Source of the DNA: Methanocella paludicola SANAE
Lineage (GTDB): Archaea; Halobacteriota; Methanocellia; Methanocellales; Methanocellaceae
Direction of reading: 5' to 3'
Assembly (NCBI RefSeq): GCF_000011005.1
Contig: NC_013665.1
Coordinates: 1,116,001-1,180,000 of the forward strand
DNA length: 64,000 bases
Shown here: positions 11,772 to 25,109 of the stretch, piece by piece
Position numbering within the stretch: position 1 is the stretch's first letter
How the letters are laid out: every line of letters begins with the position of its first letter
The notes under the pieces: model-generated
The model's input: the letters and a program-made list of their open reading frames with translations, nothing else
Database searches by the model: none
What the model was told of the DNA's origin: nothing
Made by a program: the position numbers and the translations under genes

Positions 11772-12095
11772 CTACTTAGCAGGGAACTTAAAAGCGTCCT
11801 TCGGGTTCCTGGCCAGCTCATTATACTGGATATGCTTGATGCCGATCTTCTCGACGCTGGCCTTCCAGATCTTAGCGGGCAGCCATGCCGGAGAGTTCGC
11901 GGGCTTCGGGACCTGCTTGCGCTCACCCTTGAAGAAATGCAGCTTCTTCGTGCCCTTTTCCCTGAGTATGATCTTCGTGATGTTCTTGTTCGCGACCTTT
12001 AATGCGGCATCCCTGGGCTGGGCGCCGGTGAAAGTGCCTATCTCCTCCCCGTTTTCGTTGAGTAAGCCGAAATTCTTTTTCTCTCTTGCTACCAT
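11772..12095 (-). CDS. Chromosomal protein MC1
   Basis: MC1 is a small basic monomeric protein that bends and packs DNA in Methanosarcina, related methanogens and haloarchaea. This 107-residue protein matches it from NFGLLNENGEEIGTFTG through QPRDAALKVANK, ILREKGTKKLHFFKG and PAWLPAKIWKA, and is rich in Lys/Arg. The ATG at 12095 is preceded by AAGGTGATT at ideal spacing; a longer open frame upstream is not needed. It stands alone with an AT-rich upstream region, consistent with strong independent expression. The DNA-contacting arm (RGTKK-like, here KGTKKLHFF) is intact. Confidence 0.95.
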   Translation of the reverse strand: MVAREKKNFGLLNENGEEIGTFTGAQPRDAALKVANKNITKIILREKGTKKLHFFKGERKQVPKPANSPAWLPAKIWKASVEKIGIKHIQYNELARNPKDAFKFPAK

Positions 12096-12298
12096 TGAAT
12101 CACCTTTCCTTGCCGTTGTTTTAACGGCCCTCGATATAAAATAAATTGGAATCCTTCTATTTATAGGTTGTGAAATTAACCCTCCTCGATATATTGAGCG
12201 CATTTAGGGGTTTTTTTGATAGTATAAACTGATTCGGGGAAATATTTAGGCATATCATGCACAAAATAAAAAAGGAATTGTAGTGGAGAAGAACAGAA

Positions 12299-12556
12299 TT
12301 AGCGTATAGCGTGCAGGATAGTCGCTGCTGCTCTGCCATTCTCCGTGAGCTCGTATTTGCCCTTTAGCTTTTTAATGACGCCCTTCTCTGACATGTCCCT
12401 GAGCGCCTTTTCCAGCAAGAGCTTCGGCGCCCTGGTCAGCTTTCCTAAGGCCTCTTCGGTCTCAGCCCCGTTCTTGTCAAGTACGTCGACGATCTGCTTC
12501 CGCTTGACGTTGCCGCTGATGAACCCGGCCAGCTCTTCGATGGTAGCTTCAGCCAT
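12299..12556 (-). CDS. Small winged-helix DNA-binding protein
   Basis: The 85-residue protein reads as a single winged-helix domain: a helical start, KRKQIVDVLDKNGAETEEALGKLTRAPKLLLEKALRDMSEKG as helix-turn-helix, then a wing (VIKKLKGKYELTENGRAA). It is probably a transcription regulator or nucleic-acid-binding protein; target unknown. ATG 12556 is chosen because GGAG lies upstream; a TTG twelve codons earlier is possible. It follows the HEAT-repeat gene by 42 bases on the same strand, so both may form one transcript. Confidence 0.75.
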   Translation of the reverse strand: MAEATIEELAGFISGNVKRKQIVDVLDKNGAETEEALGKLTRAPKLLLEKALRDMSEKGVIKKLKGKYELTENGRAAATILHAIR

Positions 12557-12598
12557 TTTATCACTATACTCCTGTATGTCCTTATTGTGCAAAAAGTT

Positions 12599-13520: not shown

Positions 13521-13840
13521 TATCGGCGAGCTAGCCCGGGTGGTTCGGCGTCACCTATTACCTTCAATCGTCGGCATGTCGGGGGCGAAGCTTGAGGAAG
13601 GCGTTCCTGTTGTATGAAGGCCTTACTTCTCGACAGTGAAAGCCCGTCCCGCTTGGTTGGCGGTGGCGCTATGTCATGCTGGAGAGCATGACGTACGCCT
13701 TAATTACGGGGACCGGCACAGGCCCGGAAGGGAGCATGCTTACCGTGAACAACTAACGCTTGTGGGGTCGCGGGCTGGAGGGAAGGGGTAAGATAACTTT
13801 CATATTGCTCGGCGTCGACTGATGGCGTGCTCGCTACTTT
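13521..13840 (+). ncRNA. Signal recognition particle (7S) RNA
   Basis: The 5' part carries the archaeal helix 3-4 domain (gctagcccgggtggttcggcgtcacc), followed by gtcggcatgtcgggggcgaagc. The 3' part carries the diagnostic helix 8 sequence caggcccggaagggagca, which binds SRP54. The ends pair (gcgag at 13526-13530 with ctcgc at 13830-13834), closing helix 5. Length of about 320 nt is normal for archaeal 7S RNA. A TATA-like box lies near 13491-13500. Ends are estimated to within about 10 bases. The last 146 bases are repeated at 20535-20680 across an inserted island. Confidence 0.92.
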
Positions 13841-13842
13841 AA
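13697..13842 (+). repeat. Left direct repeat: 3' part of SRP RNA gene
   Basis: These 146 bases recur at 20535-20680 with three substitutions and no gaps. They cover the helix 8 region through the RNA 3' end and stop two bases past it. Sequence similarity ends abruptly on both sides, as expected of a duplicated attachment site or a target duplication. Confidence 0.9.
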
Positions 13843-13977
13843 CATAAAATCTTTTTCCTCATGTTACATTACTATGATACTCTAAAGGCTGCATTTTGAT
13901 TTGATGTTTAAACACACGAGTTTAGAGTGTTGCAAAAGTCTTAGAAAGTATTTGGGTTATCTGGACAAGCTGTGTTT

Positions 13978-14223
13978 ATGACGAGTAAAAACGGCTTGCT
14001 GATAACCCATAGTTGTCTTGATTGTCAGATACGAATACTTTCTGATGTGCATATTGAGGTTTTGGATTCGTTTGACTGGCAATGCCTCGTTTTTCTGGAA
14101 CGTTACCGGGGTGTTGGAAGGCCTCTCGAGTATAGCGTGATCGCCTTTCTGCGGGCCTTCGTTTACATGGAGCTAAGCGGTATGACTTCGGTAAGAAAGC
14201 TGGTGAGGATGTTAGCTAGGGAT
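13978..14223 (+). pseudogene. N-terminal fragment of IS5-like transposase
   Basis: The frame encodes an N-terminal transposase domain (DUF772 type: GRPLEYSVIAFLRAFVYMELSGMTSVRKLVRML) and is then cut by the nested element after LARD. The rest of the protein resumes at about 15603, where GAT-AAA follows in frame, so the original read LARD-KYKMKILGF. Non-functional. Confidence 0.8.
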
Positions 14224-15596
14224 GAGAGTGTAAATTTTTTTGTTGAAACTTCTTTTTTCTCTTTTGTTACTTTTCTCTTTTATACCAACCGTTCTATATA
14301 CATGCTTCCACGCGGTCTTTGAAGTATACCATGAGTTGGTTCATGATCGTGCCCCATTCCCTGACTGCCATCTTCCATTTCTCCGACTTGTCCATAACGA
14401 TAAGGTAGAGTATTTTGAAAAGGCTGTCGTCCGTGGGGAAACTACTCTTGTTCTTAGTGATCTTTCTGATCTTCCGGTTGAAACTCTCGATGGGATTCGT
14501 CGTGTAGATGAGCCTTCTTATCTCCGGAGGGTACTTGTAGAACGTGGACAGGCAAGGCCAGTTAGTCCGCCAGCTCTTTATGGCGTACGCGTACTTAGCG
14601 CCCCATTTCTCCTCCAATCGGTCCAGGGCATCGAGCCCCGCCTCTTCAGTTGGTGCCGTGTACACTTCTTTCATGTCCTTGCAGAACGGCCTCCTGTCCT
14701 TGTAATTAACGAACCTGGTACTCGTCCTGATCTGGTGGACGATACACCGCTGGACCTCAGTCCTGGGGTACGCGGCATGGATTGCGTCCTCGAACCCATT
14801 TAGCCCATCCACGCTTACGATTAGAATGTCCTTCACCCCACGGTTCTTCAGGTCGGTTAGTATGCTCATCCAGAACTTGCTGGATTCTGCCTCCCCAATC
14901 CATATCCCAAGGACCTCCTTGCACCCCTCCACCGTGATGGCATACACCAGGTAAGCAGTCTTCTTGACAACGTGGCCGTCCTGCCTCACGTTAAACATCA
15001 CCCCATCCAGGAATATGATCGGGTACAAGGGTTGCAATGCACGGTTCTGCCACTCCCTGGCCACGGGGAGGATCTTGTCAGTAACCCTGCTGACCATCTC
15101 GGCCGACACTTCCACACCGTACACCCTCCTCATCTGCGCTTCGATGTCCCGGTTACTCAACCCGCTGGCAAACAACGAGACGATGGTATCCTCCAGCTCA
15201 GTACTGATCGAGCGCTCATACTTTTTAACGATCACAGGCTCGAACTCCCCCTTCGAGTCCCGGGGAACGTCCAGGCTTATCTCGCCAAACTGGCTCTTCA
15301 CCGTCTTCGATGAATGACCATTCCTCGAGTTATCAGTATCCTTGTTCTTCCAATCGTACTTCGAATACCCCAGGGCACAGGTCATCTCTTCTTCTAAAGC
15401 TTCCTGCAGGACTTCTTTGATTTCCCCGACGAAAGCCTTCTCAACATCCCCGCCCCGTTTCAAATTATTATCCTTGCTCGAATGCGAAGCAAAGCCAAGC
15501 CCTAATTTGCTCCTTAGTAAACAACTTAGACATGCTAAACCATCCTTTACACAGTACTAGGTAAAAGAAGTATCAGCAAAATTCCTTACACACCCC
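14224..15596 (-). mobile_element. IS256-family element nested in the IS5-like element
   Basis: The ends form related inverted repeats about 30 bases long: gtgtaa, then ttttg-tga-acttctttt at 14228-14256 and, on the other strand, ending at 15591. The exact outer edge is uncertain by a few bases; a target duplication (ctagggat against taggataa) is imperfect. The single transposase gene on the minus strand is intact. It entered the outer transposase gene, so it is the younger insertion. Confidence 0.8.
14294..15463 (-). CDS. IS256/Mutator-family transposase
   Basis: The 389-residue protein matches IS256-type DDE transposases: RNGHSSKTVKSQFGEISLDVPRDSKGEFEP at the N-terminus, then IIFLDGVMFNVRQDG (first Asp), VSVDGLNGFEDAI (second Asp), CIVHQIR, and near the end IYTTNPIESFNRKIRK (Glu). 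All three catalytic acids are present. TTG 15463 is the first usable start in the frame; the upstream bases remain open but lack a better start. It is unrelated at close level to the IS256-type enzyme at 23592-24752. Confidence 0.92.
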   Translation of the reverse strand: MKRGGDVEKAFVGEIKEVLQEALEEEMTCALGYSKYDWKNKDTDNSRNGHSSKTVKSQFGEISLDVPRDSKGEFEPVIVKKYERSISTELEDTIVSLFASGLSNRDIEAQMRRVYGVEVSAEMVSRVTDKILPVAREWQNRALQPLYPIIFLDGVMFNVRQDGHVVKKTAYLVYAITVEGCKEVLGIWIGEAESSKFWMSILTDLKNRGVKDILIVSVDGLNGFEDAIHAAYPRTEVQRCIVHQIRTSTRFVNYKDRRPFCKDMKEVYTAPTEEAGLDALDRLEEKWGAKYAYAIKSWRTNWPCLSTFYKYPPEIRRLIYTTNPIESFNRKIRKITKNKSSFPTDDSLFKILYLIVMDKSEKWKMAVREWGTIMNQLMVYFKDRVEACI

Positions 15597-15599
15597 TAG

Positions 15600-16340
15600 G
15601 ATAAATATAAAATGAAAATTCTCGGCTTTCACCGTTTGCCAGATCATAGCCTGTTCAGCAGGTATAAAGAACGGTTCGGAGACCACATACCGAGGATCAT
15701 GACGATCATTAATACAAGCATAATGCTTGAGGAACCCATGCATATGTCCATGCTTGGTATCGACAGCACCAAGCTGGAGGCCTTCAGCCGGAAAGATGAT
15801 GACGCCGACTGGGGATTCGATCATGTAAGATGAAAGTTCTACTACGGCTACAAGGTTCACCTGATGTACGATCTACAGTCCATGACACCGGTATGTTACA
15901 CGGTCACCGGGGCTAACCGTCATGACAACACTCAGACCATCCGGCTAGTAAAAAGGCTCGGAGCACGCCTATTAAAGGTAAACACGATACTCGCCGACAA
16001 AGCCTACGACACCAGGGAGAACATAGAAAAACACCTAACTGTAGGCGTCCTTTTCATAGCAGCAAGGAACAAAAGGAACACCAAAAAACCGGTAAACAAA
16101 TACAGGATACAGGACCACCTCGAACTTGGAGATGAGGAGCTAGACCATATTTATAAAAACAGGATGGACTGCGAACACGCCAATTTCCTACTCAAAGAAC
16201 ACCTAGGCCTAACAAACTTAAAAACTACTGGGCGAGAAAAAGTCCGAGTGAAAGTAGGCATAACACTAATCGCAAGACAAATCCAAGTACTACGCCAGCT
16301 AATTAACCAGAAAAACCCACGAACAACAATCACAAACTAA
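15600..16340 (+). pseudogene. C-terminal fragment of IS5-like transposase with in-frame stop
   Basis: The fragment resumes the transposase catalytic domain: GIDSTKLEAFSRK (Asp), ILADKAYDTRENIEKH (Asp), RMDCEHANFLLKEHLGL (Glu). A TGA at 15831-15833 interrupts it after GFDHVR; the frame continues directly as KFYYGYKVHL. Together with the upstream insertion this makes the gene inactive. Confidence 0.85.
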
Positions 16341-16532: not shown

Positions 16533-16542
16533 TACTTATAAA
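16533..16542 (+). promoter_or_regulatory. TATA box for the secreted island protein
   Basis: Acttataaat lies about 25-30 bases before the most upstream possible start (TTG 16567). This puts the transcript start close to that TTG and favours a start further down, near the AGGAGGA at 16608-16614. Confidence 0.4.
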
Positions 16543-16566
16543 TGTCAAATTTACTAATTACTTGAA

Positions 16567-18024
16567 TTGGGAGCTCTTATAATTAGAGTTCAATCCAAAT
16601 CCACTATAGGAGGATCTTGTACGAAAATAAGCTTTGTGAAATTTTCTGCGATGTTAATTGTATTATTAACTTCCACAGCATCAATTTTGTGTACTGTAAA
16701 TGCACAAACTTTGGATGTCAAAACTAATAATTTAAATACTGATTTACAGTATTCCGAAAATTTCGAGAATATACAATATGGTGAATGCATAGATATGTCT
16801 GGGATCGATCCAGTTGTAAGAGATTTAACAGGTACCTATAAAATATCAGACAATAAAGATGGTACTGTTGATATAATCGTCAGCTTTAAAACTGATGACG
16901 GTAAAATTTTAAAAGAAACTTATAAAAATATACCGGTTATCTGGAAATACCATATGTCTTCGGATGGTCGAAAGATCATTGATACAATTGATATTATGGA
17001 TTGGACACACGCAGTATACGCATGTATAGACATTGCTAATAGTAGCTATGGTCTATTCCATATTGCTATAAATACTGAACACGGCCAATATTCCGCAAGT
17101 GGTTATATTAAAAACCCGCTTTCAATAAAATATAAAACTGCTGAAAATTACGGTACAATAGTGCCCATTTCCCAAGATGGAACGATTGAAGTTACAAAAG
17201 GGAATCCTGTAAAATTTACGACAATTGATGTTGGCAGTGAAAAAGTTTATGCTGTTCCGATAGGAGATTTAAAAGCGCATAATAAAACAATTATTATAAA
17301 AAATAAGACTTACAGCGAATCAACAGGTACAATAAGTCCAATGTCTGTGCCACATCCAACAACATATGGTATTGTTGAAGAGGCTATGCAGGCATATGAA
17401 CTTACGAATCATCATGTACCAACTCAGATTCCAACGTGGTTGATGAATGCTGGTGTTGATTATGCGTTTTATAGAAATCAACCCGATAGAGCTACTGTCA
17501 TATCTGATATTGATTATTATACTAGGCTTAATAGATATGATGACTCTAAATCCAGGATTCTATCTGTCTTCGAAATTTGCTGTCATGGAGCAGACGGTGT
17601 AGGATATACGGAGCCTGACAGGATACTTTGTTATTGGGGAAGCGGGCTATCTGTATTATATCCAAGCGACGTAACCAATATTTTCCAGACACAGCATACC
17701 GATTACATTAACAGTGCGGGCGGATGTATTGCATTTTTCCATGTCTGCGAAGGCCTTTGGGATAATAAAGATGCCAATGGGAACTATTTGAATCCTGATT
17801 CACCCGAGATGGGACATGCATGGGTTGACTATGGAGCATCTGCTTACATGAGTTTTACTGGAGACGTTAATATAGCAATCGATACTTTTGAAAATACACT
17901 CTGGAACTCAATTTGCTCGTCAAATACTGTCGGTACTGCATGGAATGCAGCTTATGCAGCTCAGAACCCCGGATGTTCCGGTGGGATATGGGGTAATTCA
18001 GGAGCGACACTATTTACAATCTAA
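16567..18024 (+). CDS. Secreted protein with caspase/gingipain-like (clan CD) C-terminal domain
   Basis: The protein has a signal peptide (KISFVKFSAMLIVLLTSTAS... ending near Ala-Gln), a beta-rich N-terminal region of about 200 residues, and a C-terminal domain from about residue 270. The latter has clan CD features: a hydrophobic strand then CCHGADG (His340-Gly341), and AFFHVCEG (Cys394), spaced 54 residues, followed by a GASAYMSFTGDV...TLWNS...GTAWNAAYAA tail as in C25/CHAT-type peptidases. Peptidase activity is inferred. Residue numbers count from TTG 16567; a perfect AGGAGGA at 16608 suggests the true start is nearer 16621 (an in-frame ACG) or 16636 (GTG). Very AT-rich relative to neighbours. 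It precedes the membrane sensor gene. Confidence 0.6.
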   Translation: MGALIIRVQSKSTIGGSCTKISFVKFSAMLIVLLTSTASILCTVNAQTLDVKTNNLNTDLQYSENFENIQYGECIDMSGIDPVVRDLTGTYKISDNKDGTVDIIVSFKTDDGKILKETYKNIPVIWKYHMSSDGRKIIDTIDIMDWTHAVYACIDIANSSYGLFHIAINTEHGQYSASGYIKNPLSIKYKTAENYGTIVPISQDGTIEVTKGNPVKFTTIDVGSEKVYAVPIGDLKAHNKTIIIKNKTYSESTGTISPMSVPHPTTYGIVEEAMQAYELTNHHVPTQIPTWLMNAGVDYAFYRNQPDRATVISDIDYYTRLNRYDDSKSRILSVFEICCHGADGVGYTEPDRILCYWGSGLSVLYPSDVTNIFQTQHTDYINSAGGCIAFFHVCEGLWDNKDANGNYLNPDSPEMGHAWVDYGASAYMSFTGDVNIAIDTFENTLWNSICSSNTVGTAWNAAYAAQNPGCSGGIWGNSGATLFTI

Positions 18025-18038
18025 TTATAAAATTAAGT

Positions 18039-18075
18039 GATAAGTTAATTTACTGAAGAAGCGAATTAACTTATC
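18039..18075 (+). terminator. Perfect 12-bp hairpin after the secreted-protein gene
   Basis: Gataagttaatt at 18039-18050 pairs perfectly with aattaacttatc at 18064-18075 across a 13-base loop, 15 bases after the stop codon. It is a likely terminator or mRNA-end stabiliser, making the two island genes separate transcripts. Confidence 0.6.
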
Positions 18076-18128
18076 CTATTATTTAAAATTAGTTAGCCTA
18101 GACAAATAAATCAATATATTTGAATCAT

Positions 18129-18140
18129 ATTACATGTAAT
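18129..18140 (+). promoter_or_regulatory. Palindrome upstream of the sensor-regulator gene
   Basis: Attacatgtaat is a perfect 12-base palindrome lying a few bases before a TATA-like box (aaatataatct, 18146-18156) and about 50 bases before the ATG. It is well placed to be an operator, possibly for the winged-helix protein that the gene encodes. Confidence 0.4.
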
Positions 18141-18190
18141 AGACGAAATATAATCTATATTATTCCTTGATTCTATCCTTAGTGATCTGA

Positions 18191-20422
18191 ATGAAGAAGC
18201 CGATGATATTCGAAGGTATCCTAATAATACTCTTGATATTCCTCGTTTTCATTATGTACTGTATGTTAACGAATGATGATCCAAGTAAGATGAACGGGTG
18301 GGAAATCAATGGTATAGCTCCTGTATCATACATACATCCAGGAGTTAATAAGACGTTATATGCGTTTATGGGATATACCGGAAATTCGATTTACTCTATA
18401 GATGATAATGGAAATATTAATTGGAAAAATACTATTTCAGATAAATGGTGTGTATATAATACGTTTTATCGCCCTTCTACGATGTACCTAAATTATATGG
18501 GCGATTACACCATGCATGGCAAGAAAGTTGTTTGTTGTTCAGAGAATGGAATATTATATCTTTATATCAGGGAAAATAAGACGACTTACTTGAATCATGA
18601 TTATTTAAGTAACGAATATACACCGTTAAAATATAATTGTTCAGAATTAGGGGAAAGGATCGTAGCTATCTCTTCACATGGTAAAATTTTATGGAATGTA
18701 TCTATTAGTGAAAAATACAATCCATTCGATAACGTCAATATTGAAGCAAAAAATGGCAGAATATATGTTTTCAACGATTATAATGAAACAATACTTAATA
18801 ATAAAGGCGATATTTTATTTAAGATATGCAATATTTCAGATCCTGCATCTATTGATGAAAATGGGAATATATATGTCGTAATGAATAAGGATCCCGAAAT
18901 ATTGCCTGTTTTAAATGGAAGTTTGTATAATTATAAGGAGCCATCAAATATCATCAATGCATATGACAGTAATGGTATTTTGATCTGGCAAACAAAAATT
19001 TCAACGCTTATTTATAGAGAGGAATCTTTACATTCGTTGCCATTACAAACAAATTTGCCTTTGTACCAAAATAATACCTTATATTTACCGGTAAAAGACG
19101 GAGTTGTAGCTTTAGATCGTGATGGTAGCATAAAATGGTCAAAAAATTTTTCCGAAGGATATTTCCGTCTTTTTGACCTCCTGCCTATCGACTCTCAGGA
19201 CAATGTTTATATTAGATATTATGATTTTGACCCAAATCTAAATGATTCTTATATTATGGCTTTGGCGTCTGATGGGTCTATTATTAGTGAGACTATTATT
19301 AACTCCGATGATTACTATCAAGGACGTGCATGTGCTAATAATGGTACCCTATATTCAATAAAATCCATGTCTGCCGGTGACGCTCTAAATATTGAAGACT
19401 TGCCTATTTATTGTGTCACAGCCTATGATATGATAAATGGTGCCTCTCTATGGGAGTACTATATTCATCCCGATGGTCAATTTATTACTACAATTAATAA
19501 AAGTAACATACACGAATTCATGAGCCCGATGCCAGCCGATTTTATATTAAATACTATGGTGGACCCACATAATCGAAATTATACTTATTATCCTCAGAGC
19601 GATGGCTATTCTTATATTTTACACAATAATAATGTAACGTACTTTGGGTATTACATAACGAGATTTGAATGGCCAGCCCTTCTGGATAAAACAAATTGCA
19701 CTTATTCAGGGGGGATTTATGCTTTTGATAATAATGGTAATCTTTTATGGAAAAAGCCTGCCGCGTACTTCGTTACATCCATGATCGGAGATGACAAAAT
19801 CTTATATTACGGTAGCAATAATGGAATGTTATATAAGGAACAGATAGATCAAACAATTGGTGGCATCGCCGCAGCCGCCACAATCTATATATTATTCCGT
19901 TTTTTCCTTATAGGAATTTTTTCCAGAGCTAAGGATCGTCTTGATAATAACGAGAACAGGAATACAATATTGAGATACATTACAACTCATCCGGGTTTGA
20001 CGTTATATGAATTAGCACGTAATCTCGATATGAACGTAGGTACAGCGAGATACCATTTGTTTATATTAAGCGTTAATCACCGTATTCTTTCATTTATAGC
20101 TACCGGAAAATATTCACGGTATTTCATTAATTCCAGCCAATATAGCAAAGAAGAACAATATATAATATCTTTAATGAGGCGTGATACTGCCAGAGAATTA
20201 TCAAACTTACTCCTTAAAAAACCCGGGCTATCCAATATCGAATTATCAAAAGAACTTGATATGCAAAAAAGCACAATAAGTGCGTGTGTGAATGAACTTT
20301 TAGATCGAGGTATTGTAATAAAAAGTCCTTCACTACATGGAAAGGTGACTTATTTAATAAACCAAGACTATAAGGATTATATCGTTTCTGCCATTGAGCT
20401 CATAAAAAGTGAGCCAAAATAA
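18191..20422 (+). CDS. Membrane one-component regulator: extracellular PQQ-like propeller plus two winged helices
   Basis: A 743-residue protein. Residues 6-28 are a signal-anchor helix. Residues 35-550 contain at least six PQQ/YWTD-like blade motifs of the form DxNGxxxW (SIDDNGNINWK, SHGKILWN, DSNGILIWQ, DRDGSIKWS, INGASLWE, DNNGNLLWKK), predicted outside the cell. Residues 555-577 are a second membrane helix. Residues 590-650 and 655-735 are two winged-helix domains inside the cell, with the first showing TLYELARNLDMNVGTARYHL and the second NIELSKELDMQKSTISACVNELLDRG. It would sense an external ligand and bind DNA directly. AGTGATC precedes the ATG. Ligand and targets are unknown; the adjacent secreted protein is the obvious candidate partner. 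Confidence 0.8.
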   Translation: MKKPMIFEGILIILLIFLVFIMYCMLTNDDPSKMNGWEINGIAPVSYIHPGVNKTLYAFMGYTGNSIYSIDDNGNINWKNTISDKWCVYNTFYRPSTMYLNYMGDYTMHGKKVVCCSENGILYLYIRENKTTYLNHDYLSNEYTPLKYNCSELGERIVAISSHGKILWNVSISEKYNPFDNVNIEAKNGRIYVFNDYNETILNNKGDILFKICNISDPASIDENGNIYVVMNKDPEILPVLNGSLYNYKEPSNIINAYDSNGILIWQTKISTLIYREESLHSLPLQTNLPLYQNNTLYLPVKDGVVALDRDGSIKWSKNFSEGYFRLFDLLPIDSQDNVYIRYYDFDPNLNDSYIMALASDGSIISETIINSDDYYQGRACANNGTLYSIKSMSAGDALNIEDLPIYCVTAYDMINGASLWEYYIHPDGQFITTINKSNIHEFMSPMPADFILNTMVDPHNRNYTYYPQSDGYSYILHNNNVTYFGYYITRFEWPALLDKTNCTYSGGIYAFDNNGNLLWKKPAAYFVTSMIGDDKILYYGSNNGMLYKEQIDQTIGGIAAAATIYILFRFFLIGIFSRAKDRLDNNENRNTILRYITTHPGLTLYELARNLDMNVGTARYHLFILSVNHRILSFIATGKYSRYFINSSQYSKEEQYIISLMRRDTARELSNLLLKKPGLSNIELSKELDMQKSTISACVNELLDRGIVIKSPSLHGKVTYLINQDYKDYIVSAIELIKSEPK

Positions 20423-20534: not shown

Positions 20535-20680
20535 GCCTTAATTGCGAGGACCGGCACAGGCCCGGAAGGGAGCATGCTTACCGTGAACAACTAACGCTTG
20601 TGGGGTCGCAGGCTGGAGGGAAGGGGTAAGATAACTTTCATATTGCTCGGCGTCGACTGATGGCGTGCTCGCTACTTTAA
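20535..20680 (+). pseudogene. Truncated 3' copy of SRP RNA gene (right direct repeat)
   Basis: It repeats 13697-13842 at 143 of 146 positions, including the helix 8 core, but lacks the 5' domain and therefore cannot fold as SRP RNA. It marks the right edge of the island. The T-rich sequence that follows may be the original SRP RNA terminator. Confidence 0.88.
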
Positions 20681-21625: not shown

Positions 21626-22255
21626 TTAATTGCTCACGATATCGAGAAGCTTTTCCAGGCTATCGATCTCGTAGTCGGGCGTGGTCCGAATGGGACGCTT
21701 GAAGCGGTTGATATAAATGCTCCGGACGCCGGCGTTCTGCGCGGCCATGATGTCGGAGAGCGTATCGCCCACGTAGGCGACTTCTTCGGGCTTGAGCTTC
21801 ATGTCGACGACACAATAGATTATGGGCAGCGGAGAAGGCTTGTATCCCGTGTCCTCGGTACAGGCGATTATGGGATTAAAGTACTGCCGCATGCCGACCA
21901 TTTTCAGGAGCATGTCGGTATGGTCGTACGACGTGTGGGTTACGATGCCCTTCGGCACGTCCAGCCCCTTGAGTATGGCCGCATCCTCGTGGAGGTACGT
22001 GCTACGCAGCTTCTCGTCGATGTTCTCATACCTGTTAAAGACGGTCCAGAACTTATCGGGATCGCAGCCCCAGCGCTTGATCACGTTATCCCGGGACTCC
22101 GAGTCAATGGCGTACCAGAGCTCTCTAGCATGGCATAAATTAAAATCATAGCCCAGGTCACGGCCGACGCGATGGAGCATAAGCTCCATGTAATCGTCGT
22201 CGTTGTCAATGATCGTGCCGTCCAGGTCGAAAATGAGCCCTTTGATGCGTTCCAT
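21626..22255 (-). CDS. HAD-superfamily hydrolase
   Basis: The protein (209 residues from ATG 22255) carries motif I GLIFDLDGTIIDND (nucleophile Asp and general acid Asp), motif II in KGIVTHTSYD (Thr), a Lys in TGYKPSPLP and motif IV VAYVGDTLSDIMAAQNAG. The cap lies between motifs I and II, so it is a phosphoglycolate-phosphatase-type enzyme; substrate unknown. An upstream in-frame start would add 19 residues that look unrelated to the fold, so ATG 22255 is preferred. It diverges from the CPBP protease gene. Confidence 0.9.
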   Translation of the reverse strand: MERIKGLIFDLDGTIIDNDDDYMELMLHRVGRDLGYDFNLCHARELWYAIDSESRDNVIKRWGCDPDKFWTVFNRYENIDEKLRSTYLHEDAAILKGLDVPKGIVTHTSYDHTDMLLKMVGMRQYFNPIIACTEDTGYKPSPLPIIYCVVDMKLKPEEVAYVGDTLSDIMAAQNAGVRSIYINRFKRPIRTTPDYEIDSLEKLLDIVSN

Positions 22256-22354
22256 AGGCTTTAACGATAGAATAAGCACGACCCGCTTCAAAATACTTTG
22301 CGGTTCGTACAATATAGTAAAGCTTTTACCGGTTCATAGCGATGATATGGGCAT

Positions 22355-23272
22355 ATGAGCGGCTACAGGAAGGGCACGCGTAAAGAGAAGGTGCCGAGGA
22401 TACGGGAGTTCGAGGTCGGCGGTTTTAAAGTGCCTCCTGCTTTGCTTATCTCGTCTCTGCTTGCGGCTTTGTACGTGCTGTTCCTGCTGGGCGGCCAGCT
22501 AGAAAAGGGCCAGGACGCCATTATCCTTTCTGCCTTTTCGGTGCTCTCGTTTGCCGTTTTTGCCTACCTCTCCCGCTCGGGTAGCGTTGTGGGCCTGCGG
22601 AACTTTATCCATCTGATCGACGCTTTCCTGGCGTTGTCGTTGCTTACGTTTATCGTGGATGCGGCGTCTTATTTCGGCGTCCTTCCCGCCATGAGCGGCC
22701 TCATGCAGCCGTTAACGATGAGCTTTATATTTGCCGTTTTAAGCGCGCTGCTGATATGGCTGGTACTGTACTTTGAAAAGGGCGACCTTGATGACGACTT
22801 TATCCGGGATAGCAGCCGCTCAAGCATGCTCTACGGTGCCGCCGCCTTTGTTCTTTGTATCGTGCTGGGCCTCGGCGTCCTGTACTTCGCCTTCGGCGGT
22901 TCAGCCATGAGCTTTAACAGTCTCGGGTATCTGGCCTGGATGACGATCATTTTTAGCCTTCTCCTCGGCATTAGCGAGGAGGCGTGGTTCCGAGGCCTTA
23001 TATTATCGAGGATGGAGCCGCTGGCGGGCGAGAAGCGGGCCAACATCCTGCAGGCGCTTATCTTTGGCGTGTTCGAGGCTTTCGCGGTCTATGCCATCAG
23101 CCCGCAGCTCATCTATTTGCCCGTCATATTCGTCGCGGGTTCCCTCCTGGGCTATTATTTCGGGCGGCTGACGCTTAAAGAAGAAAGTATCGTCCCGGCG
23201 GCGCTTTATCATGCCGGATTCTACGTGCTCATCGGGCTGCCGCTGTTCGCCGGCATCGCTAAATATCTATAA
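22355..23272 (+). CDS. CPBP-family intramembrane glutamic protease
   Basis: A 305-residue protein with about eight membrane segments. The Abi/CPBP motif 1 EEAWFRG (about residues 208-214, Glu-Glu-x-x-x-Arg) lies in the fifth or sixth helix, motif 2 is present as FGVFEAFA and motif 3 contains His in LYHAGFY (about 284). Family members are CAAX-prenyl or other intramembrane proteases. A basic N-terminus of about 25 residues precedes the first helix. Substrate unknown; it is monocistronic, and a family B palindrome follows. Confidence 0.9.
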   Translation: MSGYRKGTRKEKVPRIREFEVGGFKVPPALLISSLLAALYVLFLLGGQLEKGQDAIILSAFSVLSFAVFAYLSRSGSVVGLRNFIHLIDAFLALSLLTFIVDAASYFGVLPAMSGLMQPLTMSFIFAVLSALLIWLVLYFEKGDLDDDFIRDSSRSSMLYGAAAFVLCIVLGLGVLYFAFGGSAMSFNSLGYLAWMTIIFSLLLGISEEAWFRGLILSRMEPLAGEKRANILQALIFGVFEAFAVYAISPQLIYLPVIFVAGSLLGYYFGRLTLKEESIVPAALYHAGFYVLIGLPLFAGIAKYL

Positions 23273-23538
23273 TATTCCCTGTGGTGTTGATTAGTTCGGT
23301 CGGTATCACGAACCTCTCCAAAGGAATTAAAACACTAATTTTTCTTTTTAGATTTTTCTCACTAAGCCTCTAAGCCTCGAACTCACCGTCAACGCACGAG
23401 CTCTCAAATACACAGGGCAGTGCTCGAATTCTCGAAGGCTCTAACCCGAAACGAAGGCTCTAAATCTCTAATTCACGTTTGAAACGCTAAACAGTGGAGC
23501 ACGAACACTCTAAAAGCCCGGTCGATCCCCCGCATTTT

Positions 23539-24822
23539 GGCAGTGTCCCGTATTTTCTGTAATTTTGGTTTTAGCCCTTGTATTCGTTATTCTAGTCATT
23601 GCGTTCCAGGTCTATATGTTTTTTGTCTACTGCATATTCCTCGTTCACGTCCATCAGGATGTTTACGATGACTCGTAACGCGGATTGGTTGCTTGGAAAT
23701 GCTCCGATGGGCCTGGTTCTTCGTTTTATGAGACTGTTCACGTTCTCCAGGGTGTTGGTCGTTCGTAGTTTTATCCATTGGTGTGGGGGAAATGCCAGGT
23801 AGTTATAGAGGCAAGGCAGGTTTTTATCGATCAGGCTGCTGGCCTTGTCAAAACCACGGGCTTCGAGATCTTCGGCCAGGTTGGCCAAAAGGTTAGGAGA
23901 TTCCATGTGATCTTTCAGTAATTGGTTGATCTCGCCTCTCTGTTTCGCTGGTACGGTCTTTATCACGCTTCTTCTGAAGTGTACGTGACACAACTGCCAG
24001 CTGGCACCCAGAAAACACTGCTCAACAGCCTTTTTAATCCCCTTATGCCCGTCGCTGATAACCATTTTTATGCCTGTGAGCCCCCGTTTCTTGAGATCAT
24101 CAAAGAACACGGTCCACCAGTCCTCATCCTCCCGGTCCATGATCCTCGAGTCAAGTATCTCCTTGTACCCATCCTGATTGACGCCCATGGCGATGAACAC
24201 GGGCTTCGAGACGTACATCCCATTATCTCTCACCTTGATGTAGGTGGCATCAACGAACAAGTACGGAGTACCTCCAAGAGGCCTCGCGAGGAAATGTCTC
24301 ACATCATCATCCAATTCCTCACTTATTCTGCTTACACTGCTTTTACTCACCTCAACACCAAGAGTCTGTAATACCTTCCTCATTTTCCGCGTGCTGACGC
24401 CCTGAAGATAGGATTCGCTAATGACATTCACCACCGCCTTTTCAGCCCTGCTGTACCGGTCGAACAGACAGGTCTCAAAAGGCACCTCACGAAGCTGAGG
24501 CTTCTCCAACTCCACCTTACCATAACGAGTCACCAATCCACGAGACTTATACCCATTACGACGAGCCCTCCTTCCCTCCGCCCGCTCATAATGCATAGCC
24601 CCGGCCTGCTCACACGCCTCTTCCTCAAGAATACTATTAAGAAGATCCCTGATAAGATTCTTCATAGCATCCGAGTCTGCCCTAATATATTTCAACGCGT
24701 ACTTCGTATCACTGTATGGCCTTGTATTCCTCATATTTTGTTCTCCAAACAATAAATTGAGAATACAGGGCTAAAAATATTAACCAAATAAAAACAAATT
24801 ACAGCAAAATAGGGACAGAGCC
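23539..24822 (-). mobile_element. IS256-family insertion sequence
   Basis: The ends are inverted repeats (ggcagtgtcccgtatttt, and ggctctgtccctatttt read inward from the right), each followed by a ctgtaattt block. An exact 8-base target duplication, cgcatttt, is at 23531-23538 and 24823-24830. The 1284-base length is typical. It lies near the tip of a long palindrome. The transposase looks intact, so it may still be mobile. Confidence 0.9.
23592..24752 (-). CDS. IS256-family transposase
   Basis: The 386-residue DDE transposase shows RRNGYKSRGLVTRYGKVELEKPQLRE, LFVDATYIKVRDNG (Asp 1), VISDGHKGIKKAVE (Asp 2), WQLCHVHFRR (the family C-x2-H) and RTTNTLENVNSLIKRR (Glu). Length and motif spacing are complete. 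It fills the insertion sequence on the minus strand with only short margins. Confidence 0.95.
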   Translation of the reverse strand: MFGEQNMRNTRPYSDTKYALKYIRADSDAMKNLIRDLLNSILEEEACEQAGAMHYERAEGRRARRNGYKSRGLVTRYGKVELEKPQLREVPFETCLFDRYSRAEKAVVNVISESYLQGVSTRKMRKVLQTLGVEVSKSSVSRISEELDDDVRHFLARPLGGTPYLFVDATYIKVRDNGMYVSKPVFIAMGVNQDGYKEILDSRIMDREDEDWWTVFFDDLKKRGLTGIKMVISDGHKGIKKAVEQCFLGASWQLCHVHFRRSVIKTVPAKQRGEINQLLKDHMESPNLLANLAEDLEARGFDKASSLIDKNLPCLYNYLAFPPHQWIKLRTTNTLENVNSLIKRRTRPIGAFPSNQSALRVIVNILMDVNEEYAVDKKHIDLERND

Positions 24823-25109
24823 CGCATTTTTGGGTGTTTAGGGTCGTTGGCGTTTTAGCCGAGCCTTAGAGAGTTAGTGCAGGCTTGTTTAGCGTTTCGA
24901 ACGTGTATTCGCGTTTTAGAGCCTTCTTTTCGGGTTTGAGGCTTCGGGCGTTCGTGCAATGCCCAGAGTATTAGGGAGTTCGGGCATTGACGGTGAGTTC
25001 GAGGCTTAGAGGCTTCGTGAGTAAAATTATAAAAGAAAAATTAGTGGTTTAATTCCTTTGGAGAGGTTCGTGATACCAACCGAACTAATTTGCTTAAAAT
25101 TACGGATTC

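Follow-up and report, generated by a model that had tools for sequence, protein, structure and literature searches.

An AT-rich island beside a duplicated part of the SRP RNA gene of Methanocella paludicola carries genes for a predicted exported protein and a predicted membrane winged-helix regulator

Mobile DNA that integrates into RNA genes leaves a characteristic geometry, in which the target gene is complete at one side of the insert and a displaced 3' fragment of it lies at the other end (compare PMC4383910). Archaeal att sites usually measure 40-50 bp, and a review of archaeal tyrosine recombinases nowhere mentions SRP or 7S RNA (PMC8371274). For the Methanocella paludicola chromosome, regions of very low GC content have been described and presumed to stem from horizontal transfer (PMC3146512). 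In clan CD peptidases, strands end just before the catalytic His and Cys, which are positioned at the C-terminal ends of beta3 and beta4, with a His-Cys spacing of 42-49 in caspase-7, PmC11 and MARTX-CPD (PMC4357240).

The window analysed here is a stretch of 64,000 nucleotides, bases 1116001-1180000 of the closed 2,957,635-bp chromosome of M. paludicola SANAE. The host is a methane-making archaeon of rice fields. Over two neighbouring genes of the window, p1 and p2, the GC content falls to 0.29-0.39, as compared to ~0.55 in the surroundings, and GC3 (0.27 for p1 and 0.30 for p2) lies below the 0.47-0.87 found among relatives of p2. The two genes share one strand and this unusual composition, and all other genes of the island are transposases, in agreement with a first-pass annotation that had located both open reading frames correctly and placed them on a mobile-type island. 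We propose that segment 13843-20534 represents imported AT-rich cargo that became established next to the Methanocella SRP RNA gene. The segment and its borders comprise the following features.

13524-13836, plus strand: intact SRP (7S) RNA gene at the island's left border (complete match to Rfam RF01857 over model positions 1-317, 195.7 bits)
13697-13842, plus strand: 146-nt direct repeat, left copy, corresponding to the SRP RNA gene's 3' half and possibly attL (98% identical to 20535-20680)
13972-14322, plus strand: IS5-type transposase, N-terminal part, broken by another insertion sequence (Pfam DUF772)
14294-15463, minus strand: Mutator/IS256-type transposase nested inside the IS5-type element (Pfam Transposase_mut, E 1e-107)
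15864-16340, plus strand: IS5-type transposase, C-terminal part (Pfam DDE_Tnp_1, E 1e-18)
16567-18024, plus strand: p1, predicted exported orphan protein with a beta-rich N-terminal part and a C-terminal part with H340-G341 and C394 (open reading frame, hydrophobic segment 28-46, no family match)
18191-20422, plus strand: p2, membrane PQQ-type propeller with two predicted cytoplasmic winged helices (Pfam PQQ_2 and two HTH_24; hydrophobic segments 9-27 and 559-577)
20535-20680, plus strand: right copy of the repeat, a truncated SRP RNA 3' half, possible attR or displaced original 3' end (repeat search, alignment, partial RF01857 match at 20540-20586)

The island borders resemble those of integrative elements in tRNA genes, where foreign DNA lies between direct repeats of the 3' part of an RNA gene and the gene is restored at one end. 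Here, the 3' part of the SRP gene is repeated at both island ends, with the complete target gene on the left. Different from such elements, the target is the SRP RNA, the repeat of 146 nt is longer than usual archaeal att sites, and no integrase gene is present between the repeats, where the list of open reading frames combined with Pfam identifies transposases, p1 and p2. Each of three family relatives (G009, G019 and G029) has a single SRP copy. In G019, the SRP gene is flanked by homologues of the window genes at 12302-12592 and 11775-12203 on the left and at 21629-22312 and 22355-23272 on the right, with no island, and the HAD-type homologue of 21629-22312 follows the SRP gene, i.e. the empty arrangement. 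The geometry of the island corresponds to integration at an RNA gene, and an integrase is its probable origin. In such a scenario, the cargo would have entered the 3' half of the SRP gene by site-specific integration, insertion sequences would have invaded later, and any integrase would have been lost. The SRP RNA gene may accordingly serve as integration site for the island, a role for which literature searches yielded no paper. Neither repeat copy is simply the original, because the mismatches favour different copies: at one position the base shared by all three relatives is found in the right copy, and at another the left copy agrees better.

Some additional observations concern the same sequences. 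The insertion sequences at 13972-16340 are nested, the IS5-type halves (DUF772 and DDE_Tnp_1) being split by the Mutator/IS256-type transposase. Second SRP matches in other genomes were considered as truncated repeats and ruled out, as they are full-length copies on other contigs or low-scoring. Many weak, low-scoring matches to the SRP model are scattered over the genomes G252 and G172, probably representing noise.

The p2 protein combines a propeller (PQQ_2, E 4e-8), located between the two hydrophobic segments, with two HTH_24 stretches (E 6e-13) at the C-terminal end. The presence of two such segments indicates a two-pass membrane protein, as the first-pass annotation had described. p2 is a full-length member of the PQQ-propeller/winged-helix membrane regulators of Methanocellaceae, with signal anchor, propeller, second transmembrane segment and both winged helices all matched, an identity of 32-36% to family members over the whole length, and a best paralogue aligned at E 2e-141 over residues 1-739. 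Fourteen further full-length homologues were detected in four Methanocellaceae genomes, three of them in the same genome and the others in all three relatives. The family is expanded in Methanocellaceae (4 propeller-winged-helix genes in this genome and at least 7 in G009), so the combination that had seemed unfamiliar at first reading is usual in the lineage as far as p2 itself is concerned, although no second locus with both p1 and p2 genes was found in the genomes searched. Among the matches listed from 394 genomes, full-length ones are confined to Methanocellaceae, and outside this family only the C-terminal membrane/tandem-winged-helix module is matched. The same module, a transmembrane part followed by two winged helices, constitutes the small tandem-winged-helix membrane proteins of methanogens and other Halobacteriota, which differ from p2 in measuring ~250 aa and having no propeller. 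Within its own family p2 is distinguished by its AT-richness and by having no private orthologue in the tree, where its placement is not firm and the nearest relative is a same-genome paralogue with 35% identity. Judged by these domains, p2 could be a membrane one-component regulator, predicted to bind DNA via its winged helices.

Relatives of p2 often lie beside, or are fused to, exported surface proteins, namely CarboxypepD_reg proteins, a Peptidase_MA protein, and NHL and RCC1 propellers. Long extra N-terminal parts are present in the relatives at L010:5891-9337, L063:5431-8736 and L057:6808-9843, with a Pfam RCC1-type propeller in the case of L010. At L009:6412-15495, in the same genome, two p2 paralogues are surrounded by exported CarboxypepD_reg proteins and a Peptidase_MA protein that is likewise exported.

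The p1 protein spans 485 aa if counted from the TTG at 16567. Its hydrophobic segment peaks at residues 28-46, and by eye the stretch V24...VNA46/Q47, VKFSAMLIVLLTSTASILCTVNA/QT (cut before Q47), reads as a signal peptide, supporting the export predicted in the first pass. Since this signal begins at V24, the true start may be the GTG at 16636. A candidate TATA box, TTATAAAT, was noted by eye upstream of the gene at 16536-16543. The His-Gly pair (H340-G341) and C394 are present as previously reported, and p1 shares with clan CD peptidases (caspases, gingipains, clostripain, legumain) a His-Gly followed by a Cys at near-expected spacing (54), each after a hydrophobic stretch; the clan differs in that p1 has no sequence or fold match to it. 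The proposal of a caspase-like fold was not confirmed, as p1 matches nothing in Pfam, NCBIfam, PADLOC or the PDB and neither of two structure models was usable. The only beta strands suggested by the single-sequence AlphaFold model (pLDDT 34) are located in the N-terminal part. No relatives of p1 were retrieved from 394 phylum genomes, queried both with full-length p1 and with its C-terminal domain, from two scans of genome collections, one with a deliberately degenerate artificial alignment, or from viral contigs (scanned twice), phages and plasmids. Those weak matches in the phylum genomes that were inspected are chance matches.

The closest candidate kin of p1 is the Pfam family of unknown function DUF6345 (PF19872), members of which occur in 47 of the 394 phylum genomes and in none of the 4 Methanocellaceae genomes. 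These are likewise exported archaeal proteins, and their genes are often close to membrane winged-helix genes. When p1 is aligned with 28 archaeal DUF6345 proteins, the three invariant columns (H, C, H) are all occupied, by H340, C394 and H417, a register that the same alignment method reproduced in 2 of 150 shuffles of p1 and in none of the 106 other proteins that served as decoys. In contrast, p1 lies below the Pfam cut-off, the family model giving no match, and scores against the DUF6345 profile are at chance level whichever of three methods is used (hhalign, a purpose-built glocal profile alignment, or HMMER with the closest sub-family). As all score-based tests are at chance, the kinship is a lead only, suggesting without statistical significance that p1 may be a very divergent cousin of the archaeal DUF6345 proteins. 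An alignment-assisted model of the last 200 residues, which is weak and partly circular (pLDDT 53, pTM 0.51), places strands 46-54 and 102-108 just before H55 (H340) and C109 (C394), respectively. The residues themselves and the strand ends of this weak model are compatible with the clan CD geometry anticipated for His340/Cys394, but p1 has no sequence match to a peptidase family. Foldseek comparison of the assisted model to the PDB gave no match with E <0.9, the DUF6345 profile retrieved no solved relative from the PDB, and of the 29 rows in the DUF6345 alignment Peptidase_C14 reaches no more than 2, at E 0.05. We regard p1 as a predicted exported protein that is possibly protease-like.

The surroundings of DUF6345 genes were inspected at 35 loci (flanks of ~5 kb, or shorter at contig ends), using a model of the C-terminal part of the p2 family for detection of winged-helix genes. 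A membrane winged-helix gene is nearby at 15 of the 35 loci as compared to 0 of 40 control windows (Fisher p 1.4e-6, with related loci counted separately), the controls being of the same size and chosen by position from the same genome set, not every genome of which they cover. The combination of an exported HG/C protein and a membrane winged helix thus recurs in archaea. The regulators at these loci mostly have one winged helix and two transmembrane segments, unlike p2. A frequent order is DUF6345, an exported ~300-aa protein without Pfam match, and the regulator; at other loci the regulator is divergent. Membrane winged-helix genes near DUF6345, often with the ~300-aa exported protein in-between, are seen at L149, L153, L156, L157, L161, L169, L170-L172 and L178. 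These loci lend indirect support to the general pairing of exported protein and membrane winged helix put forward in the first pass, but the association bears on p1 only if p1 is DUF6345-like, which the alignment suggests and the scores do not render significant.

Other explanations have to be weighed for each part of the locus. The SRP repeat may have arisen by local duplication or homologous recombination with no integrase involved, in which case the SRP gene would not serve as att site; we give this somewhat less than an even chance. It is favoured by the 98% identity of the copies over 146 nt, which includes parts that differ by ~20% from the sister species so that species-specific SRP sequence is present in both, by the missing integrase, and by the finding that no other of the 295 genomes scanned has an insert with an unambiguous truncated SRP copy next to it. 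Conversely, the agreement with RNA-gene integration geometry (compare PMC4383910) and the empty arrangement of G019 argue for integration. As for p1, not far short of half of our expectation lies with p1 being no peptidase but a member of a private family, exported for a surface or binding role, with His-Gly and Cys there by chance or for structural reasons. Family, structure and profile searches lend no support to any peptidase, the 11 cysteines of p1 could form disulphides, and the predicted strands of the single-sequence model are restricted to the N-terminal part, whereas the coherent register of three residues with invariant DUF6345 columns speaks against such a protein. A strand-HG/strand-C layout, found in 0 of 267 background proteins, would point in the same direction as the register, but it had been derived from p1 itself and no more than 2 of 30 DUF6345 proteins conform to it, and it was dropped as evidence.

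Overlapping with this explanation, p1 and p2 may be functionally unlinked, their neighbourhood being a coincidence of joint capture in AT-rich DNA, a view with an appreciable likelihood that stays clearly below even. Homologues of both genes were not seen together elsewhere: none of the 14 further full-length p2 homologues in the four Methanocellaceae genomes adjoins a p1 relative, p1 itself having no known homologue, and these genomes thus lend no support to conservation of the pair. Moreover, the genes are separated by a spacer of 167 nt with a possible terminator hairpin at 18030-18084, and may therefore be separate transcripts. Against a chance neighbourhood stand their position as sole non-transposase genes of the island, on one strand and with one unusual composition, and the recurrence of comparable pairs at DUF6345 loci. 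Functional coupling is conceivable, the direct evidence for it being only adjacency, common strand and common foreign composition. An anti-virus defence or cell-death switch, raised at first reading from the idea of a caspase-like effector with a sensor on a mobile-type island, appears very improbable, as p1 has a putative signal peptide and is predicted to act outside the cell, PADLOC returns nothing for p1 and only generic winged-helix matches for p2, and phage, plasmid and viral collections contain no relatives.

Our preferred reading, held tentatively and with somewhat less than even confidence, is that of imported cargo at the SRP RNA gene encoding a surface module, with p1 as exported His/Cys hydrolase-like protein and p2 as membrane one-component regulator. 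In this module, p1 would most likely act as a His/Cys hydrolase outside the cell, the propeller of p2 outside the membrane would sense a ligand or the state of the surface, and the winged helices in the cytoplasm would bind DNA, most simply at the p1 and p2 promoters, with p1 being the exported target or partner of p2 in a one-component surface switch. A broader view is unlikely, namely that an undescribed form of archaeal surface signalling, pairing an exported His/Cys (clan CD-like) protein with a membrane winged-helix regulator, exists in Halobacteriota DUF6345 operons and, far-diverged and equipped with a propeller as sensor, on a mobile island that integrates at the SRP RNA gene. If true, archaea would possess a recurrent one-component pathway leading from a hydrolase outside the cell to DNA without an intervening kinase, and the SRP RNA gene would be added to tRNA genes as a target of mobile DNA. 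Better supported are the island at the duplicated SRP RNA gene and the association of DUF6345 with membrane winged-helix genes, which provides a first functional context for this Pfam family; the SRP RNA repeat flanking the island and the DUF6345 co-location are new here. Outside the island, a 224-nt inverted repeat (23290-23513 and 24866-25089, 85% complementary) with unusually long arms brackets a Mutator-type transposase at 23592-24752.
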